A stretch of DNA of 64,000 nucleotides from Nitrospira sp. (lineage in GTDB: Bacteria > Nitrospirota > Nitrospiria > Nitrospirales > Nitrospiraceae): positions 3,555,501 to 3,619,500 of the forward strand of contig BQWY01000001.1 of assembly GCA_036984305.1 (NCBI GenBank), written 5' to 3'. Made by a program: the position numbers and the translations under genes. Below are positions 1 through 38,596 of this stretch, in pieces; position 1 is the first letter of the stretch, and each line of letters opens with the position of its first letter. The notes beneath the pieces were generated by a model. That model saw nothing but the letters and a program-made list of their open reading frames with translations. It had not been told where the DNA came from and made no database searches.

Positions 1-614
1 CTTCGGCGACCCCCAGGATCTGCCGGTGCCCATCCACGCCCACGCCGATCGCCACCAACACCGACACATTCCGCACTTCTCCCGCCCAACTGCGCTTCAG
101 CACCACGCCGTCCAGATATAGGTACGGAAACGCGCTATCCAGACTTCGCGTCCGCCACGCCTCAATATGCCGGTAAATCTTCTGGTTCAGCCGACTGACG
201 GTCCCCGAGCTGACCCGGGTGCCCACAGCGCTTCCGTGATGTCTTCCACCCGTCGCACACTCACCCCCGCCAAGTACATCTCGACCAAGGCTTCTTCGAC
301 CGAGGATTCCCGCCGCCGATACCGCTCAATGATCGCCGTCTCAAAGAGCAACCGTCGCAGTTTCGGCATCTTCAGCGTCACGGGGCCAGCCTTCGTCTCC
401 AGCTTCCGCTGATAATGGCCGGCCCGGGTGTAGGCCCGCTCCGCGGCACGCTCGTACCGGCTCGCGCGACAAATCGTCTCCGCTTCGGCTTCCAGCAGCC
501 CGTTGAGCGTCTCTTCGACGCTCGACGCACCACCTCGGCGATATGGCCCTGCAGCGGCCCCGTATCCACCCGAATCGTCTCTGTAAGCGCATCCCCCTCC
601 GGCTGCTCTGTCAT
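1..614 (-). pseudogene. IS256-family (mutator) transposase, frameshifted, cut by window edge
   Basis: The reading starts at ATG 614 behind a strong ribosome binding site (AAGGAGGAGG) and gives an IS256-type N-terminal half: a VEETLN segment, LRR, FETAIIERYRRRESSVEEAL and MYLAGVSVRRVEDITEAL motifs, then YPYLYLDG-like and LKRSWAGEVRNVSVLVA-like segments near the edge. Two single-base deletions break it: one near 521-524 (just after EVVRR) and one near 221-224 (TGGGCACC where TGGGGCACC is expected). Because the family normally reads one uninterrupted frame, I call it inactive. The catalytic C-terminal half would lie left of the window. Such an element beside a duplicated caspase locus fits an accessory region. 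Confidence 0.85.
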
Positions 615-719: not shown

Positions 720-3700
720 TCATGGCCTGATTGGCGTGGAGATAGGTAGATCTCGTCCCCGGGCGAAATCGAAGAGGGCCGGCCGTTGAATTGAAACCAA
801 TGTGGGGCTTTCGGGTCTATCCAGCGGGGTAGCGGCCTTCGCTTTCAGCTTACCCTCGCGGTAGTCTTTGTAGAGGCTCGGCACCCGCTCGGCTCCGTAG
901 CTCAACCACTCCGATAACTGGATATACGAATCCGTGGGCTTGTAGTTCGCCTTGTTCTCCGTGAGCCCTTCGCGGACCAAGGCATAGCTCAACAGCCCTT
1001 GCTGTGTCTTCTCCGTCTCTAAGGCATATTGATCGCGCTGACTGGCCGCCAAGATGCGCATACCCTTATCGAAGGCCAGCTGACCTAGCCCGCGGCTCCC
1101 CATCGGGCCGGGTTTGAACTCTTTGTCCTCTACCGAGGCTGCACTGTGACAGGCATCGACAATCATGACCAACTCTCCCGCATCCAGCGACCGGAGCCAG
1201 ACTGAGAGCTCTTCACTGGAAATGGCGTGCTCTAGCAGGTCTTTTCGTCCCCTGCCCGCCCCAAGGTCGGACGGCATCAGGTAGAATTGCCCCCGCTGGT
1301 CGGTGTCGCCATGCGTGGAGAAGGCGAGCAATACAAAATCCTCCGGCCGGGCCGACTGCAGCTGATCGGCATTGGCAATGCCCTGCAGAAGCGCCGCGTC
1401 AACGGACCGACCCGCGAGCGTCTCGATCACCGCTTGGATTCGGGCCTTGGTCGCATCGTTAGTCACTAGCTGGCCAGCCTGCTCCCCTGTCCCAAACTCA
1501 CTCACCAAGGTGATGGGGATCACCTGGGTCTCTCCGAAGACAGGTTGGCCCGTATCAGGATCCGTTACTTGACGCAGCCGCGCGCTCAGCTCGGCACCCA
1601 ACGTTTGCGCATCTCGAGCGGCATAGCTCAATCGACTCAAGGCGTCCTGCTCATACGCATTCACGCCGATGGTCACGACATATGCGCGGCCGGGCCGCGG
1701 GCGGAGAGCTGTAGGGATTGGCACGGTGATCCGGGCCGTGGCACTCTTCACGCGATCCACATTGAAAGCGTAGGCGGAGAGCTCGATGTCCTTCACCCCG
1801 GTCTTGCGGGGCAACCGAATGCCGGAGAAGGTGATAGTCGTCACCCCGGTCGCCGGATCGAGCGTGATTCGATGGCGCTCACGCCAGCGGGCCAGTTCCT
1901 GCTCCCGGCTCTGCCCCACATCGCCTTCCTCGTCTTCTGGGGCAGGAGACTGGGCCACCAGTTGCCCGTTCCGGAACAGCCGCAGGTCATACGCCCCGCT
2001 CTGCATCGGCACTGGTTGTCCGTCCCGCTGAATGAGAAGGGACTGGTTGCCGACCTCGACGCGCACATCTACAAGGCCTTGAGGCTCATCGACGACGCGC
2101 ACCTCCTTAATCTCGACGCGGGGCTGGGCGCGGTTCAGGTTTGCCACCGAGGGAACTACCGGCAACACCTCGCCCGCGAGCACCCGCGGCAAGAGCCGCG
2201 GCTCAAAATAGTCCCGCATGAAGATCTCCAGCGGCAATGCATGCAGCGGATCATCAGACACAATCCAGTGCAACCCCTTGATCTCCTCCAAATTGTTCGT
2301 GTCAAACCGCCCATCCGGCGTGCTAACGACCCACGTGTCGTCCCTGAAGCTAACCAGACGCGCCATCTCCTGGCCGGTATCCCTGTGCCAGAGGCGGGTT
2401 GTCCCATCTTTACTTGCCGTCAGGATCGTTCGGCCATCGGGGGCAAACACCGCAGAGCGTACTGCCCCGGTATGACCTTCAAAACGCTGCAATTCTCCCC
2501 CCGTCGCAACATCCCATAGCCGTGCCGAGTGATCCCTGCTTGACGTCAGAATTGTACGGCCATCGAGGGCAAACACCCCCGAGAAAACGTCTCCCTCATG
2601 GTCAAAACGCTGCACTTTTTGCCTTGTCGCAATGTCCCACAGGCGCGCCGTGCGATCAGTACTTGCCGTCAAGATCGTGCGACCATCGGGGGCAAACACC
2701 GCAGAGCGTACTGCTCCGGCATGGCCTTCAAACTGTTTTAGTTCTCGCCCGGTCTCAGTGTCATATAGCAATGTCTTAGAACTGAGCGTTCCTGCCAGAA
2801 AAGTCCGACCATCGGAGGCAAAGGTAACTGAGCTCACGGCGGCAAAGTTATTGCCAGTGATGGGATGCAACTTAATCCCGGTTGCAGCATCCCACAGAAA
2901 AGCGGAGCCATCCCGGCCTGCCGTCAGGATCGATCGACCGTCGGAGGTGAACGCCGCAATCTTTGCACTAAAGTTCTGCCGCTCTTCCCCGCTCGCAACG
3001 TTCCACAGACGCGCGGTGTGATCCCCGCTAACTGTCAGGATCGTGCCGCCGTCGGGCGCAAATACCGCAGAATGTACTGGCGCTGTGTGACCTTTGAGTC
3101 GGTGCCGTTCGCGCCCGGTTGTGATGTCCCACAAGCCCGCGGTGTGATCCTTGCTCGCCGTCAGGATCGTGCGACCATTGGGGGCAAATACCGCAGAGAA
3201 TACCTCTTCGGCATGGCCCTCAAAACGCTGCAATTCTTCCCCGGTCGCAACGTCCCACAAGCGCGCGGTGTGATCCCCGCTTGCCGTCAGAAACGTGCGG
3301 CCGTCGGAGGCAAGCTGGATATGGTAGACAATCCCGCCGGCATGGCCCTCAAAACGTTGCAACTCTTTCCAGCCCTCGATGTCCCAAAGACGGGTGACGT
3401 TATCCTCACTTACCGCTAGGATCGCGCTGCCGTCGGGGGCGAATGTCACTGAGGACACAGTACCGCTCTCGACTCCGAAACACCGCAATTGACGCCCGGT
3501 CTTCGTGTGCCACTGACAAATTCGATCCTCGCTTGACGTCAAGATCGTGCGGCCGTCGGGTGCGAAGATGGCAGATAGCAATCCATCAGTGTGTCCCAGT
3601 TGAACTTCCAATTGGACTCCTATTGCATCATTGCCAGTCGACCCTTCTACCAGACACAGGCCACTCGCTCCGATGCAGAAACACAGACTAACCCATACCA

Positions 3701-3758
3701 GCGTGAATCGACTCGGCCAGTTGATCCAATGCTGTTTCTTCAGTCGAAATGTGATCAT
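720..3758 (-). CDS. Exported WD40-repeat protein with C-terminal caspase-like (C14) peptidase
   Basis: The protein has 1012 residues. The N-terminus is basic then hydrophobic (about residues 17-35), fitting export. About ten WD40 repeats follow (residues 50-460; recurring FAPDGRTILTAS and ARLWD). A linker with TWVVSTPDGRFDT precedes a caspase-type domain near the C-terminus with His816 in FSTHGD and Cys870 in VDACHSA, the expected His/Cys dyad. WD40-caspase proteins are known in bacteria, and some act in regulated proteolysis or immunity; substrate and trigger here are unknown. The last 530 or so residues are practically identical to those of the protein at 12649-16203, while the WD40 parts differ. 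The start is ATG 3758 without a clear Shine-Dalgarno. It sits in a same-strand series of four caspase genes. Confidence 0.85.
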   Translation of the reverse strand: MITFRLKKQHWINWPSRFTLVWVSLCFCIGASGLCLVEGSTGNDAIGVQLEVQLGHTDGLLSAIFAPDGRTILTSSEDRICQWHTKTGRQLRCFGVESGTVSSVTFAPDGSAILAVSEDNVTRLWDIEGWKELQRFEGHAGGIVYHIQLASDGRTFLTASGDHTARLWDVATGEELQRFEGHAEEVFSAVFAPNGRTILTASKDHTAGLWDITTGRERHRLKGHTAPVHSAVFAPDGGTILTVSGDHTARLWNVASGEERQNFSAKIAAFTSDGRSILTAGRDGSAFLWDAATGIKLHPITGNNFAAVSSVTFASDGRTFLAGTLSSKTLLYDTETGRELKQFEGHAGAVRSAVFAPDGRTILTASTDRTARLWDIATRQKVQRFDHEGDVFSGVFALDGRTILTSSRDHSARLWDVATGGELQRFEGHTGAVRSAVFAPDGRTILTASKDGTTRLWHRDTGQEMARLVSFRDDTWVVSTPDGRFDTNNLEEIKGLHWIVSDDPLHALPLEIFMRDYFEPRLLPRVLAGEVLPVVPSVANLNRAQPRVEIKEVRVVDEPQGLVDVRVEVGNQSLLIQRDGQPVPMQSGAYDLRLFRNGQLVAQSPAPEDEEGDVGQSREQELARWRERHRITLDPATGVTTITFSGIRLPRKTGVKDIELSAYAFNVDRVKSATARITVPIPTALRPRPGRAYVVTIGVNAYEQDALSRLSYAARDAQTLGAELSARLRQVTDPDTGQPVFGETQVIPITLVSEFGTGEQAGQLVTNDATKARIQAVIETLAGRSVDAALLQGIANADQLQSARPEDFVLLAFSTHGDTDQRGQFYLMPSDLGAGRGRKDLLEHAISSEELSVWLRSLDAGELVMIVDACHSAASVEDKEFKPGPMGSRGLGQLAFDKGMRILAASQRDQYALETEKTQQGLLSYALVREGLTENKANYKPTDSYIQLSEWLSYGAERVPSLYKDYREGKLKAKAATPLDRPESPTLVSIQRPALFDFARGRDLPISTPIRP

Positions 3759-3949
3759 CGCAATCGTAGTCTAGTTCTTCTTTTACTCGCGCTGCTCACG
3801 TGAAGTGCCCCCTCGTATGGTTTTATGGTTTCGGCAAGTATCCTGCCTAGCCATAGGAATAGAAGCGACACCTCGCCCTCCTCCCAGCCCTGGCTGTCAT
3901 GATGAATTCACCCTCGCTTTATCGGTATAATGGAACTAACCAGCCTGAG

Positions 3950-4135
3950 ATTGGGGGCGGCCGAAATCGAAGAGGGCCGGCTGTTGCATTCGAACTGATG
4001 GTTTAAACCTTCTCGCGTATCCAGCGGGGTGTAGAAGCCCGGCGCCCATCTTCGTAGCCCAACCACTCCGATAACTGGGAACACAAGTCCTTTGGCTAAT
4101 AGTTCGACTTGTTCTCCATGCCGCATTTCAAGGCA
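3950..4135 (-). pseudogene. Decayed 3' tail of a WD40-caspase gene
   Basis: This stretch aligns by eye with positions 764-960, the 3' end of the caspase gene at 720-3758. Shared blocks are AAATCGAAGAGGGCCGGC, TATCCAGCGGGGT, CAACCACTCCGATAACTGG and TAGTTCG/CTTGTTCTCC. It has substitutions and indels and no open frame of the right length. It is therefore a remnant of another paralogue, not a gene. The rest of the gap between the two caspase genes (3759-4308) shows nothing I recognise. Confidence 0.7.
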
Positions 4136-4308
4136 AATGTCCTATCCCTTTCAGGCAGGCGAACCACCTGTCAAACACTGTAGCGGCGAAGAAAGTTATC
4201 CCCCACAGGCTGGCAACCTCTGCTCGCGCCTACATAGAGGTCTTCCGCTCATGTTCGATCAGGAGGTAACGATTCCGAGGTGTCGGGCCATCCCACATCT
4301 CCTCCTAT

Positions 4309-7300
4309 TCATCTAGAATCACTCGATTGACGCCACGGGGCGCTCCAGTCCCCACCAACTTTTGTGATCATGTGCATCGCATTCTCCACAAACGTGTCGA
4401 GCGAAGTACTGGTGCCTTCAATCCATAGTTCTTTAACCATGTTGTCTTTTTCGAGTATGATCTTGGCGCGAAGTTTGTCCCCGATGACCGTGTACAACCC
4501 ACTTGGCTTAATTGCACCCGGCAGGTCATCCGCCTCTACAAAGGCAACTGGCAATTCAGAGCCATGTTCCCTAGCAAAGCTCGCATCGCGCAGGAGTGTG
4601 CGCAGTTTGGCCTGGAGTCCAAGATCGTCATATGCCTTCCGTTCATTCATCAAGGTCGGGCGGAGGAGCAAAGGTTTAGGGTTATGCAACGGTATAGCGG
4701 CCCGGTCTTCGCTAGTTAGCTTGCCAATGTCGAAACTTTCGATCCAGCTGGACCTAGGCGAGGCAATATGAGGACGCTGAATTCCACCGATGCTCAACGC
4801 GAGCCGCGGAACCTCGTCGGCTACATAGTTGAAAAGTCTACCTACGTCTATGAAAGCGTCCTCTCGCAGAGCTGCTCCTTTCATGCCGCGTAGCAGTGCG
4901 TGTGTTAAGAGGCCTTGCTCGAATTGAGTTGCCTCGTAGCTCACCCTGTCCGCCGCGCTACCCATAAGCACATAAACACCAGTGCGATCTTTCAGTCGGT
5001 CCAGCGCTCGGATCTGATCGGCGGGAACGCTCCGCGCCTCGACTAGACTTTTCGAAACGGCCCCAGCAGCACAAGTATCGAGGATTATTACCTGGCGTTC
5101 GGTGGCGGGCGCATTTTTGATCCACTGGGCAAGCTCCTCACTGCTCACCGCATGCTGTCGTCGAAGTAGAGGATCCTCAAGGTTCGTGGATTTTGCTTCC
5201 CGTGTCAGGAAATAGTAACTATCACTTACGGATAGTCCGTGTCCAGATAAATACACAAATATGATGTCATTAGGTCCGGCTTTCCCGAGACGTCCAAATG
5301 CAGCCTCGATATTTGCCTTATTCGGTAGAGAGGTAGGATCGTCAGTATTAGTGGTTAGGAGTGCAACCTTGACGTGATCCGCACCAAAGAGCCGATGGGC
5401 CCCAAAGCGTATTGCCTTTGCCATGTCTTCGGCATCCTTGGCGGAATAGCGTAGATCAAGCTTTTCTGCACCAGCATAATCGGATATTCCAACGATGATG
5501 GCCCAGAGAGTAATGTGAGGCGACGTGAGCGGCTCAACCTCGCCTCTGGGATCATAAAGAGCTTCTGCTGCACGACTTTTGAGGTATCCTTCATAATTGT
5601 AGGCCTGCACCTCAATGTGGTTCTTTTGCCCCTGCTTTAACCACTTCGAATATTGGGACAGCGGTAGCTCAAGCGAAAGCGATTCGACATTGGGAGGAAT
5701 TGCACTTGGCCGGACATCCTCCGCCATCTCCTTCCCATTGATAGACACGGCCACTTTACCAATGCCTCCACCACGGTTGGCAACAAAAATCCGCAACACT
5801 GGATCCTCAGTGGATGGAGAATTGATACTAATTTTAGGATAGAGGGCAACCTGGGCGAATCCTTGTATGTTATGTCCAACCTCATGATTCGCTCCCAACT
5901 TCTTAGCAAGTAGACCAGGTTCATAATAGCGCGCTTTGAGTTGATCCAAGCTAATAGATTCAAGCTCGGAAACCCAGAATAGGTGGGCGACTTCGCCACC
6001 ATTGACAGCATCAAACTGACCCGCATTATCTATTACAGCCCAGGTGCCATCAACAAAACTCACGAGCCGTGCTAGTTCTTCCCCTGTTCGTGTATCCCAG
6101 ACACGGGATGTCCCATCTTTACTAGCAGTTATTACGTATTTACCATTCAATGAAAAGACCGCCGAATTGATTTGTTGGCTATGGCCCTGGTATCGGCGCA
6201 GTTCGCGTCCCGTCGCAGTGTCCCAAAGACGAGCCGTTTGGTCCCAACTGGCGGTCAGCACGTGACGGCCGTCCACCGAGAAAACGGCCGAGACGACCCA
6301 ATCGTCATGGCCTTCGAAGCGACGTATCTCTCGTCCCGTGGTCGTTTCCCAGAGCCGGGCTGTGTGATCCTCACTGGCTGTCAGTACATAGCGTCCATCT
6401 GCCGAGAATTCTGCCGAGAAGATTGCCCCGTCGTGCCCTTCCAAGCGGCGCACTTCGCGTCCCGTCGCAGCGTCCCAAAGACGTGCTGTCCCATCCCCGC
6501 TGCCAGTTACTACAGATTGCCCATCTTGAGAGAAGCTAGCCGAGTTTACTCCGTGGTCATGCCCGCTAAAAATACGTAGTTCTCGTCCTGTCGCAGTGTC
6601 CCAGAGCCGTGCTGTCCGATCCAAACTAGCCGTTAGTACATAACGACCTTCAGGAGAAAAGACTGCGGAAAGGACAGTATCGGAATGGCCTTCGTAGCGA
6701 CGCAGTGCTGCGCCCGTACTCGCATCCCATAACTGAGCAATTCTCTTAGACCAGAATGTAGTCAGCAGATGGTGCCCGTCTGAGGATAAACTGGCGCGAG
6801 AGATACGACCATTGTCGCTCTCAATGCGGCGCACTTCTTGCCCCGATGCAACCTCCCATACTCCAACCACCTCACCTGCTACAGTCACAATATTACGTTC
6901 ATCCGCAGAGAATGAACTGAAATCGACACCCACACCATAACCCTCGAAGCGGCGTATCTCTCGTCCCGTGGTCGTTTCCCAGAGCCGGGCTGTGCGATCC
7001 TCACTGGCTGTCAGCACATAGCGATCATCCGCCGAGAATTCTGCCGAGAAGACTGCCCCGTCGTGCCCTTCCAAGCGACGCACTTCGCGTCCCGTCGCAG
7101 TGGACCAAAGACGAGCCGTTTGGTCCCAGCTGGCGGTCAGCACGAGATGGCCGTCCGCCGAGAAAACGGCCGAGCCGACCAAATCGTCATGGCCCTCGAA
7201 TAGGCGGAGCTCTTGTCCTGTAACTAGGTCCCAAAGACATACCAACTCCCTATTATTAGTCAGTACATAATGTCCATCTGGAGAAATGATAGCGGACTTG

Positions 7301-8082
7301 AAACTACTTCCATGCTTGTTGAAGCGTCTGAGTTCGCGTCCGGTGGCAGTTATCCAAAGACGAGCCGTCCCGTCGTCGCTAGCAGTCAGGATATAGCGGC
7401 CATCCGCTGAGAAGTGCGCCGAGTTGACGGAGGCGCCGTGCCCCTCCAAACGACCTATCTCTCGTCCCGTGGTCGTTTCCCAGATCCGGGCTGTGTGATC
7501 CTCACTGGCTGTCAGCACATAGCGACCATCTGCCGAGAAGTGCGTCGAGTTGACGGACCCGCCGTGCCCCTCCAAACGACCTATCTCTCGTCCCGTGCTC
7601 GTTTCCCAAATCCGGACTGTGTCTTCCTCACTATCTGTCAGCACATAGCGGCCATCTGGCGAGAAGTGCGCCGAGTTTAAGTCGCCGGTCAACTCCAAAC
7701 GATGTATCTCTTGTCCCGTGCCCACTTCCCACAACCGCGCTGTCCGGTCCAGGCTAACCGTCACGACATAGTGGCCATCTGCCGAGAATTCTGCCGAGAG
7801 AACGGGACCGTCGTGTCCCTCAAAGCTATGTATATCTCGTCCCGTGCCCACTTCCCAGAGACGGACTGTCCGATCTTCGCTGGCCGTCAGAATGTAGCGA
7901 CTATCGGAAGAAAATATCGCGTCATTGACACTGGCGCTGTGCCCAAACTGAACCCGCAACGCCACCGGAACCGGAGCAATCGGAATAGCCTGCTTCGCAA
8001 CGGATTCCCCTGTGCCCACGAACATGCTCCACAGGACGATACCAGCAACCTGGCAAAACCGATAAAAGCGATACCCCACCAT
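4309..8082 (-). CDS. Exported WD40-repeat protein with caspase-like (C14) domain and extra C-terminal region
   Basis: From ATG 8082 the product has 1257 residues; a TTG at 8124 would add 14. I prefer 8082 because MVGYRFYRF followed by a hydrophobic run (VAGIVLWSMFVG) makes a plausible signal peptide, although the ribosome site is poor. About 15 WD40 repeats follow (residues 45-670; FSADGRYVLTAS and ARLWETTTGREI recur). The caspase-type domain carries His948 in YLSGHG and Cys1004 in LDTCAAG. Beyond it are about 250 residues without a clear family. It is related to, but well diverged from, the other WD40-caspases in this window. Many repeats are nearly identical to one another, which suggests continuing repeat turnover. 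The role is inferred only: a periplasmic or surface sensor protease. Confidence 0.83.
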   Translation of the reverse strand: MVGYRFYRFCQVAGIVLWSMFVGTGESVAKQAIPIAPVPVALRVQFGHSASVNDAIFSSDSRYILTASEDRTVRLWEVGTGRDIHSFEGHDGPVLSAEFSADGHYVVTVSLDRTARLWEVGTGQEIHRLELTGDLNSAHFSPDGRYVLTDSEEDTVRIWETSTGREIGRLEGHGGSVNSTHFSADGRYVLTASEDHTARIWETTTGREIGRLEGHGASVNSAHFSADGRYILTASDDGTARLWITATGRELRRFNKHGSSFKSAIISPDGHYVLTNNRELVCLWDLVTGQELRLFEGHDDLVGSAVFSADGHLVLTASWDQTARLWSTATGREVRRLEGHDGAVFSAEFSADDRYVLTASEDRTARLWETTTGREIRRFEGYGVGVDFSSFSADERNIVTVAGEVVGVWEVASGQEVRRIESDNGRISRASLSSDGHHLLTTFWSKRIAQLWDASTGAALRRYEGHSDTVLSAVFSPEGRYVLTASLDRTARLWDTATGRELRIFSGHDHGVNSASFSQDGQSVVTGSGDGTARLWDAATGREVRRLEGHDGAIFSAEFSADGRYVLTASEDHTARLWETTTGREIRRFEGHDDWVVSAVFSVDGRHVLTASWDQTARLWDTATGRELRRYQGHSQQINSAVFSLNGKYVITASKDGTSRVWDTRTGEELARLVSFVDGTWAVIDNAGQFDAVNGGEVAHLFWVSELESISLDQLKARYYEPGLLAKKLGANHEVGHNIQGFAQVALYPKISINSPSTEDPVLRIFVANRGGGIGKVAVSINGKEMAEDVRPSAIPPNVESLSLELPLSQYSKWLKQGQKNHIEVQAYNYEGYLKSRAAEALYDPRGEVEPLTSPHITLWAIIVGISDYAGAEKLDLRYSAKDAEDMAKAIRFGAHRLFGADHVKVALLTTNTDDPTSLPNKANIEAAFGRLGKAGPNDIIFVYLSGHGLSVSDSYYFLTREAKSTNLEDPLLRRQHAVSSEELAQWIKNAPATERQVIILDTCAAGAVSKSLVEARSVPADQIRALDRLKDRTGVYVLMGSAADRVSYEATQFEQGLLTHALLRGMKGAALREDAFIDVGRLFNYVADEVPRLALSIGGIQRPHIASPRSSWIESFDIGKLTSEDRAAIPLHNPKPLLLRPTLMNERKAYDDLGLQAKLRTLLRDASFAREHGSELPVAFVEADDLPGAIKPSGLYTVIGDKLRAKIILEKDNMVKELWIEGTSTSLDTFVENAMHMITKVGGDWSAPWRQSSDSR

Positions 8083-8127
8083 CTCCAACTCATGACAGCC
8101 TGAAGTGTTCACGGCATAATCCAACGG

Positions 8128-8206
8128 GTCAGTATGAGATCCTTACCGGGCGCCAAGTCGGAGAGGGCCGCATTTTGGCTTGAACTTGACGCCACTAAAT
8201 GGGGCC
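8128..8206 (-). pseudogene. Short decayed copy of the caspase-gene 3' tail
   Basis: Positions 8128-8206 resemble 740-810 and 12696-12766: GAGATC..ACCGGGCG, then AGAGGGCCG, then a match to AATGTGGGGC. In translation it echoes the FDFARGRDLPIST ending as SDLAPGKDLILT. It lies just downstream of the caspase-subtilase gene and upstream of the next. It is too short and diverged to function; I read it as a relic of tail exchange or deletion between paralogues. Confidence 0.5.
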
Positions 8207-8226
8207 TGTTGGCAGCCAGTTGATCA

Positions 8227-11200
8227 TTAAGTGAGAGCCTTTCTAAGGCGAACAGACAAGTCCTGCTGAAGGAGTGCCTCTCGCAGTGCGGTCGATGGCT
8301 CATCTCCCCGCTGGCCGAGAATCATCGCATCCATCCGCCGTTGTATTTCTTCATTTACCGTATAATGGTACAAAAGTTCTGTCTCAAAGCTGCTCAATTG
8401 CTCCACGCTTCTCCCTCGGGCGGAGACAAACAAGGAAACATAATCCGCTCGAATGCGGTCTGGCTGCGTCCCCTCGGGATACAATGAGGCAAATAACGGG
8501 ATAGTTTGTTCTTCGGCTGGCGCCAGAACCTTCGGCTGAGCACCCATAAGGGGAACTTCAAGCAGCGCGGCGATGTTCAAGAGTCCCGCCCCGTAATCGC
8601 TATCCCAATTTGCCGTAGTACAGAACCCTGTTGGTGGAGAATCCATAGTTTTCTCTGATGGCCGCCACGCACTGGCACGGAGGCTCGAACGAAAGGCCTG
8701 TGTCAGTAATCCCTGCCTCTCCAACTCATGAAGCGCCGGGTCGTTCCGATGGGCAGTTAACCATAACGCAGCGGCTCCGGCCACGTGTCCGGTGGCAAAT
8801 GTGGTACCTTTGCCCATACCATTGATGTGTTCATGCTTCTCATTCAGAGTTGCCCGCCAGACGGACTCTCCAGGCGCCATGATGTCAACCGCTGAACCGC
8901 GGGAAGAACCCTTCCATGGTCGACAGTGTATATCCCCTGCAGCCACCGCAATCGTTGATTGAAACCGCGCAGGCCAAACCACTGTGCGGACATAGTTCCC
9001 CGCAGCTGCGACAATTAAAACGCCGTTTTTCTCCGCAGTTTTGACCGCCCTCCACATGGTGAATGTGGGAGGGCCTCCCATCGCTATGGAGATCAGCCGT
9101 GGGTTTCCAGCGATCTTGTGGTCCGCAACGTCTTGAATTGCCTGCGCAAGATAGCTGGTATTGAACTGACTGACTGTCCTATGGACCCGTAACGGAATAA
9201 GCTGAGCTCCGCGTGCGATACCGTTGACGCATCCAGGGGCCTTCGCAAGTTGGCACCCCGCAGGGCTCACGATGACACTTCCACTTGAGGTGCCATGTCC
9301 GGGATTGTCTAGCCATCGATCATTCAGTAGAGGATCAAAGGCATCCGCCTTACCCTCGTAGTAATTCTTGCTGTTGGCCGCGTCGATTGGACGCTTACCT
9401 CTGACTTCGTCCCACGTTTCAGGGTGATGGCGATAGCCAGTGTCCGGGTGGGCAATAACGATGCCTTCTGCCTCCGCTCCCTCCGTAGCCTCGACACGAT
9501 CCCTGATTTCCTTCCATGCGTCCATCACGTGAACCTGCTTAAGATTCCATTGATCGTCCGCCACTGCCGCTGGGTCATGCGTGTCATCCCCCGATACATC
9601 GCGCTTATCAATGCCTCGCTCAGTTTCTACCCCTGGCACTTGGAGTTCCAACTGTGGCTCAACCCGTTTCGCCCCGGTCTGTTTCTGGATTCGATACGCC
9701 TCCTCAAAAGCCTCGCCAACTGATACCGCTTCGTCGGTATCGCGAGAACTGGATTTGGGAAGAAGTGCCAACGCTCTCCCCTCCTTGTCGATAGGAAGCA
9801 CCAGATCACAATTACCATTCTCCTTTGCATCTCCAGATGCGCATAACCTCAATCCATCAACACTTTTGGTCTGCGCTTTTTTTGCTTCCGTTTCGTCAGC
9901 AAAGTGGAGGGCGAAGGATGATAGCTTCACTCCGACTCGGCGAATGCCGATCATGGTTTGAGCGGTGTTCCATTCATCGGGATTGGACATAAGTGGGGTA
10001 CCTGCTTTCGTACCATGGGTGGCGTGCGCCAAGAACAGTGATAGGGAATCCATCGCCGCTTTTTGCGTGGCTGCCGCCGATCGTCGCAATGGGCCTTTCG
10101 GAAAAACTGAGGGATCTATAGGCTTTGTCGTGGCGATAACTTTTATCGTATCGAGGACCATGGAGTACCCATCTGGAACGCTCATTGCGACCGGCTTTGA
10201 GGGGATGAATGTCTTCCCCGCACCCAACTCCTGCTGCTCACCTTCGGCTAGGGGATAAAGGATGCTCACGCTTCCATCGCTCGAAACGTCCAGCACGTAA
10301 ATAAAGAGAGCACGTCCACTCCTGTTGTGTACCGCGTATCTCAGCTGACACCATTTTGGTGGCTCCTCTCCTGTCGCGCGAAATCTCTTCATTGCTTCTG
10401 GAGGGCAAGCGGTTAGCTCCTGAGGCGATTGGGAATCCGAAACTCTCTGCACATCCAATGCGATGTGAAGTTTTGATCCTGGGTTCTTTAAATCAAGCAG
10501 TACCATCCAGTGAATTAGGTCTTTGACTCGGTCAGTCACTGTTTGAACAGCATCGCGATCGTCGATTGAAACTGGAGCGGCTAACGGCTGCCTATCCCCA
10601 CTTTGTATCCAGAGCTTTCGTTCCCGTTGAGTAACTACCAGCCGGGCACCGGCGGCATCGTCGACTAAGGCAATCGCTTGAAACTCTTGCATCTTTTCTT
10701 TCGCGTTCAAAAGCTCGAATGAGTTTCCAGAAATGTCCACATAAACCGGTATCGAGACCCCCCCGAACGTCGACGCCTCCAGGACCGCTCGAGACTGAGG
10801 CTTTATTTCTGCGGGCCCTATGACTTCTGCGTCCGCTTCGAAATCTAAAACGCTTGTGACTTTGACAGTAGCAATCGCCCGTTTTTCGTCGAAATCCGCA
10901 CTTTGCGGCGCAAAAACCTTGAGCGTCGAGCCGGTTCCTAGACCAAAGGCCTTCCCAGCTTCAATTCTCACCCTTCCGGTCCCTATTGGGTCAACTAGTA
11001 CATAAGGCTTGGTCAGTACTCTGTCGACCCCAAAGACGACTACGTCCTGGCCGGGTCCCTCCAGTTGGGGCTCTTGAGTCGGGAACCGAGCATTGACCTC
11101 TCTCTTCACCTCGATCATGATGTCGCGATATGTTGCCCGATCGGAAGCTCCCTTCAGGGCAGACGCTAAGAACCAGGTGAGCACACCATGTCGTCTCCCT

Positions 11201-11919
11201 TCAAAATCTGTTTCGTTTGATAGTTGCTTTGCCAAAGAACCAGAAATCAGCACATAGTCCGCATTGGTCGGCCTGATATCGGCTTCTCCCTCTCCCATCC
11301 GCAAACTGGTTGCATATTGATGAGGGATTGGTTGTTGACGCTTGTCCATTTCGATTTCTCGAGTAATGTTGCCACCTTTAGTGCTCGTCCCGGAATGGCA
11401 CGTGTCGAAAATGAGCGTGATATTGTTGGTTTTTTGTGCAAGCTGTCCAATTAGTCCATTAATCTCATCGTCCGTAATGTCAAAAACGCCCGGTGTCCGA
11501 CTATCATAAGGCACCAAAGTCTCATCCAATTCATCTATCTCGTCACCAGAGTCATCCTTCACTTGTGACCCATGGCCACTGAAATGCAAAATGATGACGT
11601 CTCCTTTCTTGGCTTTCGCAATTAGGTGATTTTGGATCGTATCGATAATATTTCGATGGGTAGCCTGCTCGTTCTCGAGCATACGGATGTTCTCGGGGGG
11701 CATTCCAAACTTCCCAATTAGTACTTCACGCATTAAACGAATATCATTCACAGCACCGCTGAGTTGCCTAATGCTGTTTGACTTGTAACGGTCAATCCCG
11801 ATGAGCAGCGCCAATTTGCCAGGGTTATAAGCTGGGAGTTCAGTTGCGACACAAGAATTTGCAAAAAGCAACACCACAACTGAAACCAGTTGCACCCGGT
11901 ACAGCTGAAGTGACCACAT
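8227..11919 (-). CDS. Caspase-like / DUF4384-like / subtilisin-like fusion protein with Ser-to-Thr change
   Basis: Start ATG 11919 has a strong site (AGAGGAGGAGAAAT), giving 1230 residues. Residues 1-28 form a signal peptide (LVSVVVLLFA core). Residues 33-300 are a C14 caspase-like domain with His116 in HFSGHGSQ and Cys174 in FDTCHSG. A DUF4384-like beta-rich region lies around 485-600 (LRYAVHNRSG..LFIYVLD, GYSMVLDTIKVIAT). Residues 815-1080 are a subtilisin-like (S8) fold: Asp826 in HPDTG, His875 in PGHGTSSG, oxyanion Asn975 in AAAGN. The nucleophile motif, normally GTSxATPHVAG, reads GTTFATGHVAG, so Thr1040 stands where Ser belongs. The S8 part may be a pseudo-protease or a Thr-dependent one; the caspase dyad looks intact. 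It has no WD40 repeats, unlike its three neighbours. Confidence 0.85.
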   Translation of the reverse strand: MWSLQLYRVQLVSVVVLLFANSCVATELPAYNPGKLALLIGIDRYKSNSIRQLSGAVNDIRLMREVLIGKFGMPPENIRMLENEQATHRNIIDTIQNHLIAKAKKGDVIILHFSGHGSQVKDDSGDEIDELDETLVPYDSRTPGVFDITDDEINGLIGQLAQKTNNITLIFDTCHSGTSTKGGNITREIEMDKRQQPIPHQYATSLRMGEGEADIRPTNADYVLISGSLAKQLSNETDFEGRRHGVLTWFLASALKGASDRATYRDIMIEVKREVNARFPTQEPQLEGPGQDVVVFGVDRVLTKPYVLVDPIGTGRVRIEAGKAFGLGTGSTLKVFAPQSADFDEKRAIATVKVTSVLDFEADAEVIGPAEIKPQSRAVLEASTFGGVSIPVYVDISGNSFELLNAKEKMQEFQAIALVDDAAGARLVVTQRERKLWIQSGDRQPLAAPVSIDDRDAVQTVTDRVKDLIHWMVLLDLKNPGSKLHIALDVQRVSDSQSPQELTACPPEAMKRFRATGEEPPKWCQLRYAVHNRSGRALFIYVLDVSSDGSVSILYPLAEGEQQELGAGKTFIPSKPVAMSVPDGYSMVLDTIKVIATTKPIDPSVFPKGPLRRSAAATQKAAMDSLSLFLAHATHGTKAGTPLMSNPDEWNTAQTMIGIRRVGVKLSSFALHFADETEAKKAQTKSVDGLRLCASGDAKENGNCDLVLPIDKEGRALALLPKSSSRDTDEAVSVGEAFEEAYRIQKQTGAKRVEPQLELQVPGVETERGIDKRDVSGDDTHDPAAVADDQWNLKQVHVMDAWKEIRDRVEATEGAEAEGIVIAHPDTGYRHHPETWDEVRGKRPIDAANSKNYYEGKADAFDPLLNDRWLDNPGHGTSSGSVIVSPAGCQLAKAPGCVNGIARGAQLIPLRVHRTVSQFNTSYLAQAIQDVADHKIAGNPRLISIAMGGPPTFTMWRAVKTAEKNGVLIVAAAGNYVRTVVWPARFQSTIAVAAGDIHCRPWKGSSRGSAVDIMAPGESVWRATLNEKHEHINGMGKGTTFATGHVAGAAALWLTAHRNDPALHELERQGLLTQAFRSSLRASAWRPSEKTMDSPPTGFCTTANWDSDYGAGLLNIAALLEVPLMGAQPKVLAPAEEQTIPLFASLYPEGTQPDRIRADYVSLFVSARGRSVEQLSSFETELLYHYTVNEEIQRRMDAMILGQRGDEPSTALREALLQQDLSVRLRKALT

Positions 11920-12648
11920 ATTTCTCCTCCTCTGGTGAACTAACCCAAGAAACTGCACCCCGAAGACCGATCCCTTGCACGTCAGAAACTGGCAGGGGTA
12001 CCGTCCTACTCCAACTCCCAGCGGTAAGGAAACCCTGTGCTTTTCTACTGCACTACTATCTGGGCGTCGTGTAAGTCCAGGATAGCGGGATCCACGCCCT
12101 TCGTGCTTACGATTTGCGTTTGATCAGGGCAAACTTCACATCTAAATGTACGCATTGGGCCCCTGCCTTGATCGTTCAGTGACGCATTTGCCGACGGATT
12201 GAGAGTACAAATGGTGAAACGATCTCCGGTACTCTAAAGGTGATACTGGCCAGAAAAGCACCGATTTTAAGGCAAGCCGTCAATCAACCACGAGTTATAC
12301 TCAGGCTTGAATGGCTCAGATTGCATCCGCCGTGGCGGCACTCGCCATGGGGCATGGCAGCTACTTTGGCGGTCTTGGGCGACTTGCCGATAACATCACA
12401 CGTACGGATTGTGCCGAAGGGCTCTCGTCAATCTCCCTACTCCATACTCGTCCTGATCTCTGCTTTCATGAGTGGTCGAGTTTCGACGACCACGGTAAGT
12501 AATTTCACGATCATCCGGCATTGGATTAATGAAGGGTGCCGATAGCGTTAGGTGGAGACGGTACATGAAATGTCCTTATCGTGGGATTGTCACCCTGCCC
12601 GCCCCGAGTTCTCGCTTTAATGAGCGTATCTTTCTAACACCAACGGTG
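11920..12648. other. Intergenic stretch without a recognised gene
   Basis: About 730 bases lie between the caspase-subtilase gene and the next WD40-caspase gene. I see short open frames on the plus strand but none with a credible ribosome site or family motif. No tRNA, insertion-sequence end or clear terminator is evident. Confidence 0.5.
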
Positions 12649-15600
12649 TCATGGCGTATGGCCGTCTTGATTCTTGAATGACTTAGCCGTGGAGATAGGT
12701 AGATCTCGTCTCCGGGCGAAATCGAAGAGGGCCGGCCGTTGAATTGAAACCAATGTGGGGCTTTCGGGTCTATCCAGCGGGGTAGCGGCCTTCGCTTTCA
12801 GCTTACCCTCGCGGTAGTCTTTGTAGAGGCTCGGCACCCGCTCGGCTCCGTAGCTCAACCACTCCGATAACTGGATATACGAATCCGTGGGCTTGTAGTT
12901 CGCCTTGTTCTCCGTGAGCCCTTCGCGGACCAAGGCATAGCTCAACAGCCCTTGCTGTGTCTTCTCCGTCTCTAAGGCATATTGATCGCGCTGACTGGCC
13001 GCCAAGATGCGCATACCCTTATCGAAGGCCAGCTGACCTAGCCCGCGGCTCCCCATCGGGCCGGGTTTGAACTCTTTGTCCTCTACCGAGGCTGCACTGT
13101 GACAGGCATCGACAATCATGACCAACTCTCCCGCATCCAGCGACCGGAGCCAGACTGAGAGCTCTTCACTGGAAATGGCGTGCTCTAGCAGGTCTTTTCG
13201 TCCCCTGCCCGCCCCAAGGTCGGACGGCATCAGGTAGAATTGCCCCCGCTGGTCGGTGTCGCCATGCGTGGAGAAGGCGAGCAATACAAAATCCTCCGGC
13301 CGGGCCGACTGCAGCTGATCGGCATTGGCAATGCCCTGCAGAAGCGCCGCGTCAACGGACCGACCCGCGAGCGTCTCGATCACCGCTTGGATTCGGGCCT
13401 TGGTCGCATCGTTAGTCACTAGCTGGCCAGCCTGCTCCCCTGTCCCAAACTCACTCACCAAGGTGATGGGGATCACCTGGGTCTCTCCGAAGACAGGTTG
13501 GCCCGTATCAGGATCCGTTACTTGACGCAGCCGCGCGCTCAGCTCGGCACCCAACGTTTGCGCATCTCGAGCGGCATAGCTCAATCGACTCAAGGCGTCC
13601 TGCTCATACGCATTCACGCCGATGGTCACGACATATGCGCGGCCGGGCCGCGGGCGGAGAGCTGTAGGGATTGGCACGGTGATCCGGGCCGTGGCACTCT
13701 TCACGCGATCCACATTGAAAGCGTAGGCGGAGAGCTCGATGTCCTTCACCCCGGTCTTGCGGGGCAACCGAATGCCGGAGAAGGTGATAGTCGTCACCCC
13801 GGTCGCCGGATCGAGCGTGATTCGATGGCGCTCACGCCAGCGGGCCAGTTCCTGCTCCCGGCTCTGCCCCACATCGCCTTCCTCGTCTTCTGGGGCAGGA
13901 GACTGGGCCACCAGTTGCCCGTTCCGGAACAGCCGCAGGTCATACGCCCCGCTCTGCATCGGCACTGGTTGTCCGTCCCGCTGAATGAGAAGGGACTGGT
14001 TGCCGACCTCGACGCGCACATCTACAAGGCCTTGAGGCTCATCGACGACGCGCACCTCCTTAATCTCGACGCGGGGCTGGGCGCGGTTCAGGTTTGCCAC
14101 CGAGGGAACTACCGGCAACACCTCGCCCGCGAGCACCCGCGGCAAGAGCCGCGGCTCAAAATAGTCCCGCATGAAGATCTCCAGCGGCAATGCATGCAGC
14201 GGATCATCAGACACAATCCAGTGCAACCCCTTGATCTCCTCCAAATTGTTCGTGTCAAACCGCCCATCCGGCGTGCTAACGACCCACGTGTCGTCCTCAA
14301 AGCTCACCAGACGGACCAGCTCGACCTCGGCTCGTGCGTCCCAGAGCCGTGTCATCATAATGTCCCCGTCCTCTCCATTGACAGTCAGAACGTGGCGACC
14401 GTCGGGAGAAATGACCGTCGATCCCGCATGCCCATGGATTCGTCGTATTTCTCGTCCAGTCGCTGAGTCCAAGAATCGAATTGTATGATCAAAAGTCATT
14501 GCAATAATTTGCTTGCCATTGTGGGTAAAGACTGCCGACTTAAATTCGTCGTTGATGAGCTTGACTTTCACCAATTCCTGCCCTGTCGCTATTTCCCACA
14601 CCTGCAGAGTTCTATCGCTGAGAGTAAGAATACGGCGGCTATCTGATGAGAAATCCATGTACCCAACCACACTATTATGGTTCTCGAAGCGTCGCACCTC
14701 TCGCCGACTTTCCATATCCCAGAGACGCGCAGTTCCGTCGTAGCATCCTGCCAAAACATACCGACTGTCAGGAGAAAAAATGGCCAACTCGACAGGTGCA
14801 AAGCGGGCTTTGAACCTATATACCTCTTGCCCCGCAGCCGTGTCCCACAACCCGACCGTTTCGTCGAAGCTGGCAGTTAGCACAAAGCGCCCGTCAGGGG
14901 AGAAAACGGCGGATTGTACCCGGCGGCGATGCCCCTCAAACCTGCGTACTTCACGCCCTGTGGCCGTCTCCGACATTCGAACAGCACGATCCCCAGTTAA
15001 GGATAGAAGATATTTCCCAGCCGGAGAGAAAACCTCATTTCGGGCCACATTGCGATAGTCTTTGAACCGGCGCACCTCTCGTCCCTGATGAATATCCCAA
15101 AGTTCGGCAGAGCCAAGGCTACTTGCTGTCAGCAAATACTGCCTGTCGGGGCTGAAAACTGCGCTGTGGACGCTGCGGCCAAAGTGCGCAAATCGGCGGA
15201 TTTCTTCCCCAGTTTGAATCCCCCAGAGTCGGGCAGTTGTATCTTGGCTGCCTGTTAACACTTGATCGCCATCGGGAGAGAAGACAGCTGAATCGACCTC
15301 CTCGTCATGCCCGACGAAACGTTTAATTTCTCGCCCCGTCTCCACTTCCCACAAACGAGCGGTTCCATCACGGCCCGCTGTCAGCACTTGACGTCCATCG
15401 TGAGACAAGACGGCTGAATTGACCTCCTCATCATGCCCGACGAAACGTTTAATTTCTCGCCCCGTCTCCACTTCCCACAAACGAGCGGTTCCATCACGGC
15501 CCGCTGTCAGCACTTGACGTCCATCGCGAGAGAAGACGGCCGAATTGACCTCCTTGTCATGCCCGACGAAACGCTGGATTTCTCGCCCCGCCCCCACCTC

Positions 15601-16203
15601 CCACAAACGGGCAGTCCCATCGCTATTCGCCGTGAGCACCAGACGGCCATTAGGATGGAAGACAGCCGATTTTGGTACGGGATCGTTCACCACAAAGCGC
15701 CGAATCTCCTGTCCCGTCGCTGTCATCCAGACACGCACGATGCCTGGGTATTGGTAGAGTGCTAGGACAAACTGATCATCAGAGGAGAAGACCGCGTAAT
15801 GCGAAGGTATATCTCCCCCTGCGTTGAATTGGCGTAGTTCATGCCCCGCCAAAGTCTCCCAGAGTCGGATCTTCATGTCAGTACCAGAAACAAGGATCTT
15901 GTGACCATCTGAGGAGAAGACCGCTGTAAATGCGCGAAAGTGGTCGGGCTGGAAGTCGCGCACCTCACGGCCGGTCTTGACCTCCCAAAGGTGAGCCCCG
16001 GTACCCTCCGCTGTCAGCACATGGCGCCCGTCAGGCGAGAATGTGGCTTGCCGCACTTCACTACGATCAAACTGGACACGAAGCTCTATTGAGGGTACCG
16101 AGAATCGAGAGGTCTCACTGGCATCAGGGGCGTTATGGTTAACGAGTAAAGGAAACATGCTCGTGAGCACAACGCTAGCCACGTACCTACCCAAGCGAGT
16201 CAT
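12649..16203 (-). CDS. Exported WD40-repeat protein with C-terminal caspase-like (C14) peptidase
   Basis: I choose ATG 16203 (site GAGAGGAAAG) over the upstream in-frame ATG 16284, because MTRLGRYVASVVLTSMFPLLV then reads as a normal signal peptide; the product has 1184 residues. About 14 WD40 repeats occupy residues 45-640, including two almost identical neighbours (about 126-bp period, 15295-15546). The shared linker (TWVVSTPDGRFDT) leads to a caspase domain with His980 in FSTHGD and Cys1034 in VDACHSA. From the linker to nearly the end it is practically identical to the protein at 720-3758, but the last dozen residues differ (TAKSFKNQDGHTP). Function is inferred as a secreted sensor protease, with WD40 repeats as the variable recognition part. 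Confidence 0.85.
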   Translation of the reverse strand: MTRLGRYVASVVLTSMFPLLVNHNAPDASETSRFSVPSIELRVQFDRSEVRQATFSPDGRHVLTAEGTGAHLWEVKTGREVRDFQPDHFRAFTAVFSSDGHKILVSGTDMKIRLWETLAGHELRQFNAGGDIPSHYAVFSSDDQFVLALYQYPGIVRVWMTATGQEIRRFVVNDPVPKSAVFHPNGRLVLTANSDGTARLWEVGAGREIQRFVGHDKEVNSAVFSRDGRQVLTAGRDGTARLWEVETGREIKRFVGHDEEVNSAVLSHDGRQVLTAGRDGTARLWEVETGREIKRFVGHDEEVDSAVFSPDGDQVLTGSQDTTARLWGIQTGEEIRRFAHFGRSVHSAVFSPDRQYLLTASSLGSAELWDIHQGREVRRFKDYRNVARNEVFSPAGKYLLSLTGDRAVRMSETATGREVRRFEGHRRRVQSAVFSPDGRFVLTASFDETVGLWDTAAGQEVYRFKARFAPVELAIFSPDSRYVLAGCYDGTARLWDMESRREVRRFENHNSVVGYMDFSSDSRRILTLSDRTLQVWEIATGQELVKVKLINDEFKSAVFTHNGKQIIAMTFDHTIRFLDSATGREIRRIHGHAGSTVISPDGRHVLTVNGEDGDIMMTRLWDARAEVELVRLVSFEDDTWVVSTPDGRFDTNNLEEIKGLHWIVSDDPLHALPLEIFMRDYFEPRLLPRVLAGEVLPVVPSVANLNRAQPRVEIKEVRVVDEPQGLVDVRVEVGNQSLLIQRDGQPVPMQSGAYDLRLFRNGQLVAQSPAPEDEEGDVGQSREQELARWRERHRITLDPATGVTTITFSGIRLPRKTGVKDIELSAYAFNVDRVKSATARITVPIPTALRPRPGRAYVVTIGVNAYEQDALSRLSYAARDAQTLGAELSARLRQVTDPDTGQPVFGETQVIPITLVSEFGTGEQAGQLVTNDATKARIQAVIETLAGRSVDAALLQGIANADQLQSARPEDFVLLAFSTHGDTDQRGQFYLMPSDLGAGRGRKDLLEHAISSEELSVWLRSLDAGELVMIVDACHSAASVEDKEFKPGPMGSRGLGQLAFDKGMRILAASQRDQYALETEKTQQGLLSYALVREGLTENKANYKPTDSYIQLSEWLSYGAERVPSLYKDYREGKLKAKAATPLDRPESPTLVSIQRPALFDFARRRDLPISTAKSFKNQDGHTP
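12690..14296 (-). repeat. About 1.6-kb near-identical segment shared with 737-2340
   Basis: The caspase-encoding 3' parts of two genes match almost base for base: this copy spans about 12690-14296 and the other about 737-2340. One visible difference is CTCGTCTCCGGGCG here against CTCGTCCCCGGGCG there. The match ends abruptly at GACCCACGTGTCGTCC, where the WD40 parts diverge. This fits recent duplication or gene conversion. Both copies have the same orientation, about 12 kb apart. Confidence 0.9.
15295..15546 (-). repeat. Tandem 126-bp WD40 unit duplication
   Basis: Two consecutive 126-bp units within the caspase gene at 12649-16203 (GACCTCCTCGTCATGCCCGACG... and GACCTCCTCATCATGCCCGACG...) are nearly identical. 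Each encodes one 42-residue WD40 blade (GHDEEVNSAV...DGRQVLTAGRDGTARLWEVETGREIKRFV). The similarity is far higher than between other blades, so the duplication is recent. Confidence 0.85.
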
Positions 16204-17081
16204 GTCTTTCCTCTCGAGACCATTGAAGTTGCATGGCTTACACCGACTCCACTCCAGTGGAATGAGTCCATAGTGCGACATCAAGGTGACCTTGCCCCGT
16301 TCATTACACCAAAGCTGAGGAGGTCAACTTGAGCCCCAGCTGGGGCCGGTTATTAAAGTTGGTCATGCATCCGGGGATGTGACCTCCCTACGGCATACTG
16401 AAGGTGCTCATTGCCCAAGGTTCCAAGCACTAGATTTGGTCGAAGGACGCTTCCAATAACTAAATAATCGTCCCTTATAAAAGATGAGACCTTTCGGTCA
16501 TCTCGCACACCTAATATATATGAGGGCCTTAGGCAAGACACATTCCTGGGAGCTGATTCAAGAAACGCTCTCAAACCCCCGCAGTGTGTATCTTTTTGTG
16601 CATCACGAATGTATCTAACGGGATACAGTTATTCGCCAATGGTTGAGTCTCTGGCAAGCTACTACGCCGCATTAGTAAGGCAATGCTGCTAGCTCAGGAC
16701 CCGCCAGGTATTCGCGTAACCACGAACATTTTTAGGTTGAATCATGCTATTGGCGTGCGCGGCATTGCCTTCATAGGTGGACAATGACCGGACGGTCATT
16801 GCACGTTACGCCATTCAAGACATCTAGCTCGGGCTATCCTGTTGGCGGTTGGCGGTGGACCCATCATTGGGCGCTGGCGGGTTGAGCCCCCGCAGGTCGA
16901 CGCGGCGAGCTGTCCAATGTCGGCGAGATAGGAGTTAGGCACAGATGCTGTGCCTCAGCGTGCGGTTCCGAAATGGTAAGTTAACGCGAATACTTCTGTA
17001 TTCGCTAGCCAACCATTCAATCTGAACTATTTTCCACTGGGATAACCGACCGAGGACAGGCAATAACCGTCCCCAGCTAGC
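16204..17081. other. Intergenic stretch without a recognised gene
   Basis: Nearly 880 bases hold no open frame with a convincing start or family motif. It contains a small inverted repeat near 16783-16801 (AATGACC-GGAC-GGTCATT) and one copy of an 18-bp sequence (16881-16898) that recurs at 19288-19305. Confidence 0.5.
16881..16898 (+). repeat. 18-bp direct repeat, copy 1
   Basis: GTTGAGCCCCCGCAGGTC occurs here and again at 19288-19305 in the same orientation. The two copies enclose the small protein, the beta-barrel and the XRE regulator genes. Exact 18-bp repeats at both sides of a gene group can mark an old insertion boundary, but no integrase or inverted ends lie inside. Confidence 0.5.
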
Positions 17082-35620: not shown

Positions 35621-35640
35621 CTTGAAACTCCCATGCGCCA

Positions 35641-36678: not shown

Positions 36679-36801
36679 GCGGCAAACTATGCCACAGAGT
36701 GAATGACCGAAACAACTGGATGGGTGCGGGTTTGACGCTTCCTGATAAGCCAGCCTGTAGGATTTTCCAGTCATAAGACTAATGAGGAAAAACGAGTTCA
36801 T

Positions 36802-37166
36802 CTTGCGTAGCGCTACGTGTGGACGGAATCCCCAGTGCAGATGCGAATCAGGGTGCGACTAGTGACCCGTTGATCGTCAGCCCAATATGAACGTCCCGAG
36901 TAGTTCCTGCTCCCTTGGCTATGAGAAGGGAAATCGGCCGACAGACCTCTGAGAGTATTACGGTAGAGTCACAGTTTGCCTGTATGGTTCCGGAGACGGT
37001 CGATACACCCCCCAAAAGATGTCATGAGGCTGTCCCCAACATCGAGAAGTCGCTTGGTGGCATGTTCGCCTCAAGGCACACCGCAGTATCGGGTCACACC
37101 CTTGCTCCCGCAAGGACGTTGCTCGGTATTGGTCAAGGATTGGGCTCAAACCACTGACTTGGCAGA
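36802..37166 (-). other. Intergenic stretch with a possible repeat-gene remnant
   Basis: Around 36835-36920 the minus strand reads like a worn beta-sandwich unit (GLTINGSLVAP, compare LTINGQVVASG in the neighbours), followed by stops. The rest of the 365 bases shows no gene. Confidence 0.35.
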
Positions 37167-38477: not shown

Positions 38478-38596
38478 GAATCCTCCCCTGACCACGTGAC
38501 GCGGAATTACTCTTCCGTCCATTACGTAGCTAGGGGAAGCAGTGTACGTGTGAGCCGAAAGAAATGGCAACCGGCACAAATGAGGGGGGCACAATG

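Follow-up and report, generated by a model that had tools for sequence, protein, structure and literature searches.

A caspase–pro-subtilase fusion of Nitrospirales with threonine at the subtilisin nucleophile position

Described relatives and the fusion gene

Going by excerpts of PMC6636752, CspC of C. difficile is the closest S8 (subtilisin-type) pseudoprotease to a caspase–S8 fusion protein that we describe here from Nitrospira sp. The protein is encoded in a stretch of 64,000 nucleotides (contig BQWY01000001.1 of assembly GCA_036984305.1, positions 3,555,501 to 3,619,500 of the forward strand) that we call, at its full length, the window. Like the fusion, CspA and CspC combine an S8 fold and a prodomain with a substituted catalytic triad, and CspBA consists of two S8 proteins fused to each other (PMC6636752). 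However, these proteins have two changed triad residues and no caspase, whereas the fusion differs at the nucleophile alone, where another hydroxyl residue, threonine, stands in for serine.

Several other systems resemble the fusion in part. In the excerpted parts of PMC7159879, EACC1–caspase systems likewise combine a caspase with a variable C-terminal domain, and NucA–trypsin–S8 systems pair S8 with another protease; the model of the EACC1-associated caspase type, NF047832, scores 50.8 bits against a cut-off of 140, and Pfam finds no NucA endonuclease domain in the three complete fusions known to us. Bacterial metacaspases and orthocaspases with C-terminal accessory domains share the p20 His/Cys dyad and the order of an N-terminal caspase followed by other domains; the words "subtilisin" and "subtilase" are absent from the main texts (supplements excluded) of PMC3501461, PMC8283722, and PMC6426788. 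Engineered subtiligase, peptiligase, and omniligase (S221C with P225A or P225N) resemble the fusion in their bulkier nucleophile at position 221 and their replaced Pro225 (PMC7921005), but the fusion is natural and carries Thr rather than Cys, and a ligase activity would be hypothetical. Neither a caspase–S8 fusion nor a natural Thr subtilase appears among the top-ranked results of our literature search, which does not prove absence. Fold searches with the modelled region list subtilases; PatA/PatG, mycosin, and QhpE were rejected as assignments because their models score under the curated cut-offs.

The fusion gene and its parts lie in the window as follows:

8227..11919, minus strand: fusion gene, 1230 amino acids (aa), with a signal-like N-terminus, caspase, middle region, prodomain, S8 domain with Thr, and C-terminal helical region (open reading frame, Pfam, full-length homologues L073/L127 and L126)
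11059..11817, minus strand: caspase C14 domain, aa 35-287 (Pfam 8e-29, above cut-off)
10120..10320, minus strand: DUF4384-like stretch, aa 534-600 (Pfam E 1.5e-4; sub-threshold, 22.2 bits vs cut-off 27)
9643..9927, minus strand: subtilisin-type prodomain, aa 665-759 (AlphaFold2 (AF2) model, structural alignment, by-eye likeness to Ser-type relatives)
9586..9636, minus strand: linker from prodomain to S8, aa 762-778, predicted local distance difference test (pLDDT) below 50 (AF2 model; Arg773 at 9601-9603)
8695..9468, minus strand: S8 domain, aa 818-1075 (Pfam 1.9e-24, above cut-off)
9283..9285, minus strand: Ser879, position 68 of subtilisin BPN' (column comparison)
9082..9084, minus strand: Ala946, BPN' 125 (column comparison)
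8800..8802, minus strand: Thr1040, codon ACA, replacing the nucleophile Ser, BPN' 221 (translation, profile alignment)
8788..8790, minus strand: Gly1044, BPN' 225 (column comparison)
8230..8547, minus strand: C-terminal helical region, aa 1125-1230 (AF2 helices, alignment with the Ser-type relative L055)

All 1230 residues are translated from a single frame (11919..8227, minus strand) without inner stop. The ATG at 11919 is preceded by AGAGGAGGAG, which by eye is Shine-Dalgarno-like, and a GTG at 11958 is an alternative start. The N-termini of the three complete fusions resemble Sec signal peptides by eye, and the caspase–pro-subtilase fusion is probably exported. With a p20 domain and an intact dyad of His116 (11572-11574, CAT) and Cys174 (11398-11400, TGC), the caspase belongs with the C14 metacaspases and orthocaspases, and its nearest solved relative by phmmer is metacaspase-1 (4f6o, 1.1e-18). 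It retains Asp172 ahead of the Cys as well as the ND motif, which we take to be the S1-pocket acids of a predicted Arg/Lys P1 specificity.

The S8 fold is supported by the Pfam match, by a predicted template modelling score (pTM) of 0.88 for the AF2 model, and by structural alignments with VIA-align Z up to 37.7. Asp826 (9442-9444, GAC), His875 (9295-9297, CAT), and the oxyanion Asn975 (8995-8997, AAC) are present, and their counterparts are found in all four copies of the fusion clade described below, but the Ser nucleophile of active S8 enzymes is replaced by Thr1040 in the same 4/4 copies; the preceding Thr1039 is an ACC codon. Re-reading the codons confirmed the fusion and all residue numbers of an initial annotation made from the window's sequence (H116, C174, D826, H875, N975, and Thr1040; ACC ACA).

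Threonine in the fusion clade and serine outside it

The fusion clade comprises copies from four Nitrospirales genomes, three of them complete (the window, L073/L127, and G679 at L126) and one 5'-truncated (G200). L073 is a full-length homologue (50% identity over residues 34-1229) among 42 loci from a collection of 84,980 species genomes, and G679 is a further complete fusion, found among 234 genomes of the order. When the whole protein is compared with 395 genomes of the phylum, the sole close match besides its own genome is G200, with an S8 half 71% identical to that of the window, while the remaining S8 matches reach at most 41% identity (a match of G575 in the order-level search coincides with that of G200 in contig and coordinates). 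All four copies carry Thr at the nucleophile, encoded by three synonymous codons (ACA, ACC, ACC, and ACG), within the motifs GTTFATGHVAG (G200, as in the window), GTTFATSHTSG (L073), and GTTFASGNVAG (G679), and the caspase dyad is intact in all three complete fusions. The OFTM313 fusion (L073; L127:7283-12151, plus strand) has an extra, degenerate caspase ahead of the intact one, a caspase-like region at aa about 40-290 with both His and Cys replaced (FFSGVGV, LLILDLNFE), and its chain is a pseudo-caspase, a caspase, and a Thr-S8. The G200 copy (L004 / L033:5606-6688, minus strand) consists of the S8 half only, with a break immediately ahead of the Asp motif and unrelated sequence preceding it; it is decaying or rearranged, yet its ratio of non-synonymous to synonymous divergence (pN/pS) is still low.

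The initial annotation had allowed for Thr1040 being a sequencing error or an isolated mutation and had proposed a comparison of homologues. This comparison rules out both for the fusion clade, with Thr conserved in 4/4 copies through three codons and Ser in all 61 readable non-fused relatives. That the gene can be lost is evident from the truncation of one copy in four (G200), but neutral decay, like sequencing error, is at odds with four genomes, three synonymous Thr codons, open frames, and pN/pS of 0.17-0.26, and we give such explanations only a minute probability. Judged from the alignments, Thr in the fusion clade looks like a selected redesign rather than a stray mutation.

The comparison set of 84 S8 segments was reduced to 79 by removing nested frames and to 76 by removing duplicates, of which 65 are readable at the nucleophile column and 11 gapped. 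In the profile alignment, 61 of the 65 carry Ser, and the four with Thr are all from the fusion clade. A tree of 48 S8 rows (at least 250 residues, ungapped at all four catalytic positions, with the nucleophile column masked) groups the Thr rows together with a support of 100/100, and a single Ser/Thr change on the fusion-clade branch suffices. The Ser-type pro-subtilases of the same sublineage (for example L085 and L055 in Nitrospira and L074-L087 in other phyla) share with the fusion the arrangement of prodomain, S8 domain, and C-terminal region as well as the AH[PL]DTGY and HGT motifs at 24-38% identity, but they have a Ser nucleophile, mostly Thr at BPN' 68, Ser at 125, and no caspase. No caspase is encoded in the Ser-type loci L074–L114 (0/41; frames of at least 180 aa compared with the window caspase at 1e-3, some loci ending at contig ends), and no S8 frame lies beside standalone caspases in L041-L051, which comprise the paralogue of the window's own genome and the caspase loci of ten relatives (14-15 kb each, scanned by motif).

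Fusion to a second protease is not in itself the cause of Ser loss. The S8–trypsin fusions L235-L238 on plasmids of Rhizobium, Sinorhizobium, Ruegeria, and Polaromonas likewise join a related S8 domain (35-38% identity) to a second protease (trypsin by Pfam in three, by motif and by eye in L235), but they keep the Ser nucleophile in 4/4 cases, these being the four examined of 229 matching plasmid records. Related S8 domains have thus joined other proteases more than once, but Thr accompanies the caspase. The S8–trypsin genes of L236-L238 adjoin a second trypsin-like gene and resemble multi-protease conflict systems, and no gene is listed under the 865-aa S8–trypsin frame of Polaromonas plasmid pPNAP01 (L235:1-2595, plus strand) in the PLSDB tables, which are incomplete.

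On the basis of pattern counts across genomes, we rejected the idea that Thr is simply widespread in S8 domains as background. A pattern for the Thr motif (to which the G679 and L073 motifs do not conform) occurs in 385 Nitrospirota genomes at 2 places, the window and G200, compared to 75 places in 62 genomes for the Ser pattern (TCN codons, hand-counted, AGY codons left out). A looser Thr pattern applied to 11 genomes has matches in 2, the window's own genome and G006, the latter as a pattern match only. The viral contigs hold 88 + 12 Ser-codon stretches (83 of the 92 matches read lie in S8-like frames) and no true Thr-S8, their sole Thr-pattern match falling in a frame of 88 aa that lacks any S8 context. 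A phage origin was rejected, with 0 places among 50,697 phage records covering 80% of the protein and no relative among the viral contigs; 0 of 427 matching plasmid records cover 80% of the fusion protein.

The nucleophile environment, the prodomain, and their possible role

The Thr-S8 domain is the most conserved part of the fusion protein and exceeds the caspase in this respect. Between the window and L073, identity is 59% in the caspase, 35% in the middle region, 36% in prodomain and linker, 68% in S8, and 45% in the C-terminus; the same regions of G679 are 74%, 50%, 54%, 77%, and 60% identical to those of the window. Across residues 816-1075, the four Thr copies agree completely at 161 of 260 columns. 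Frames are open and pN/pS of the S8 domain is 0.17-0.26 among complete copies, with saturated synonymous sites and low non-synonymous divergence; dN/dS is left unquoted because of this saturation.

Within this domain, the changes specific to the Thr clade are few. Of the 24 columns conserved at 90% or more among 38 Ser rows longer than 290 residues, the Thr clade keeps 21 (including D826, H875, G948, A972, G974, G1038, and T1039), and the oxyanion Thr and the S1 glycine are retained. Only three are altered in 4/4 Thr copies: the nucleophile itself (1040, Ser to Thr), position 879 (BPN' 68; Ser in 4/4 Thr copies, Thr in 35/38 Ser-type rows), and position 946 (BPN' 125; Ala in 4/4, Ser in 38/38). 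In addition, position 1044 (BPN' 225) is Gly in three Thr copies and Ser in the fourth, as against Pro 47, Ala 6, Val 6, and Thr 2 times in the 61 Ser-type segments. The BPN' numbers 68, 125, and 221 are assigned by motif, counted from His64, Ser221, and the SLG motif. The three changes at 68, 125, and 225 go toward smaller side chains, whereas the nucleophile is enlarged by a methyl group, which we take as a concerted accommodation of Thr.

These positions have been studied in engineered subtilisin, where P225A relieves crowding from the larger S221C nucleophile, residue 225 is flanked by the helix of residue 221 and that of residue 64, with its distance to Val68 measured, and Asn225 is bonded to Ser125 (excerpts of PMC7921005); the excerpted part of PMC11593635 also counts Ser125 among five residues that are key to the subtilisin core. 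Residues 68, 125, 221, and 225 are neighbours in subtilisin, and this contact cluster was opened by engineering to fit a bulkier nucleophile in subtiligase and omniligase, with a small residue at 225 making room for it (PMC7921005). With the other catalytic residues kept and the packing cluster of the nucleophile co-changed, the alignment suggests a redesign of the site more than plain inactivation.

An AF2 model of aa 641-1230 (21 sequences, pLDDT 80.9, pTM 0.88) shows residues 665-759, between caspase and S8, as two consecutive strand-helix-strand units. Model positions 25..485 match the unautoprocessed Pro-S324A Tk-subtilisin (2zwo/3wiu/2z2z; 342-344 residues, Z about 35, 2.8-2.9 Å), an alignment that identifies aa 665-759 as a prodomain; likeness to the prodomains of Ser-type relatives was judged by eye. 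The linker that follows (762-778) is probably disordered according to the model. Of 24 basic residues in 640-830, 6 are kept basic in all three complete fusions, and Arg773 is the sole one in the linker conserved in 3/3, which makes it a candidate caspase cleavage site.

From these elements we tentatively propose a lineage-specific, probably exported caspase–pro-subtilase fusion whose S8 site is redesigned rather than lost and that works as a caspase-gated module. The prodomain would plug the S8 cleft and stay there since a Thr enzyme would not readily self-mature. Upon a signal, the predicted Arg/Lys-type caspase would cut the linker, possibly after Arg773, and open the cleft, so that the caspase would replace the activation given by autoprocessing in ordinary subtilases. 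The opened S8 domain would then bind a peptide, with Thr1040 acting as a slow peptidase or as an acyl-trap or transferase. In its most specific form, this would be a natural Thr-nucleophile subtilase with a site reshaped at BPN' 68/125/225, prodomain-latent and switched on by the caspase of the same chain, that may prefer acyl transfer over hydrolysis; we consider this form rather unlikely.

Several points weigh against the redesign and the gating built on it. A Ser-to-Thr swap usually cripples serine proteases. When only the 13 nearest Ser rows serve as reference, 62 columns are conserved, and each of the four Thr copies departs from them at 10 (817, 830, 879, 931, 946, 955, 978, 989, 1040, and 1058); the statistics of 3/24 are weak because conserved S8 columns mostly lie near the active site anyway. 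A long stem leads to the Thr clade (1.12 changes per column in the 48-row tree), and a number of changes would be expected along it. Even among Ser-type segments, 14 of 61 have Ala, Val, or Thr instead of Pro225, so its loss may predate Thr. Finally, the clade amounts to four sequences, one of them truncated, and Arg773 as a cleavage site was read from three.

The regulatory pseudoprotease put forward by the initial annotation would use the same parts differently: Thr1040 would permanently block chemistry, and the intact cleft with its uncut prodomain would serve ligand binding or allosteric control of the caspase, comparable to the germinant sensor CspC. CspA and CspC set a precedent for this among S8 proteins, the model resembles an unautoprocessed pro-subtilisin, and high S8 conservation fits a binding role equally. 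However, CspC and CspA are each altered at two triad residues, whereas the fusion retains Asp, His, and Asn together with the oxyanion Thr, and the replacement is a hydroxyl residue in 4/4 copies without drift to Ala or Gly. We favour the caspase-gated remodelled module but rank this pseudoprotease as its equal rival, each at somewhat under even chances, with the retained catalytic residues and the co-changed cluster pointing to redesign.

The other role suggested initially, a substrate or bait for the caspase, would make the S8 domain mainly a caspase target whose freed piece is the signal. The conserved Arg773 within the low-confidence linker lends it one weak support, and effector release by autoproteolysis has been proposed for EACC1–caspase systems (in the excerpted part of PMC7159879), but it explains neither why S8 is more conserved than the caspase nor why the nucleophile cluster changed jointly, and we judge it improbable.

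As far as these alignments go, Thr is fixed in the fusion clade and changed once, with matching changes of its neighbours, within the domain that the protein conserves most strongly. An active Thr1040 would add a threonine-type enzyme to the subtilases, which to our knowledge current classification does not expect, and evolution would have reached a solution near the subtiligase design. If Thr1040 is inactive, the protein is an unusual pseudoprotease with all other catalytic residues kept, joined to a caspase with intact dyad, and a clean system for studying the control of one protease domain by a second. In both cases, the fusion offers a testable bacterial caspase-to-subtilase relay.

Genomic neighbourhood

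The fusion is one of four large minus-strand genes at 720-16284 of the window, the other three being WD40 genes, two of them with a caspase:

720-3758, minus strand: additional WD40 gene (Pfam)
4309..8124, minus strand: downstream neighbour with WD40 repeats and a caspase (Pfam)
12649..16284, minus strand: upstream neighbour with WD40 repeats and a caspase (Pfam)

The gene upstream of the fusion, at the place that a 5' EACC1 gene with one TM helix takes in EACC1–caspase systems, is a WD40-caspase in the window, while it encodes a 262-aa protein without Pfam match in G679 and a caspase in L127, whose upstream side also includes a VWA gene. The fusion is accompanied by caspase-superfamily genes as in the conflict systems covered by the excerpts of PMC7159879, but the defining features of those systems that we looked for are absent. 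Downstream of the G679 fusion, L126:10654-17553 (plus strand) encodes a 2299-aa TPR-CHAT protein.

Farther along the window, a phage-type integrase (23038-24081, plus strand) and a D12-class adenine methyltransferase (30280-31110, minus strand) possibly mark a mobile region adjoining the caspase cluster. Beyond them, at 33707-38594 (minus strand), lie two genes whose products carry arrays of cadherin-like beta-sandwich domains.

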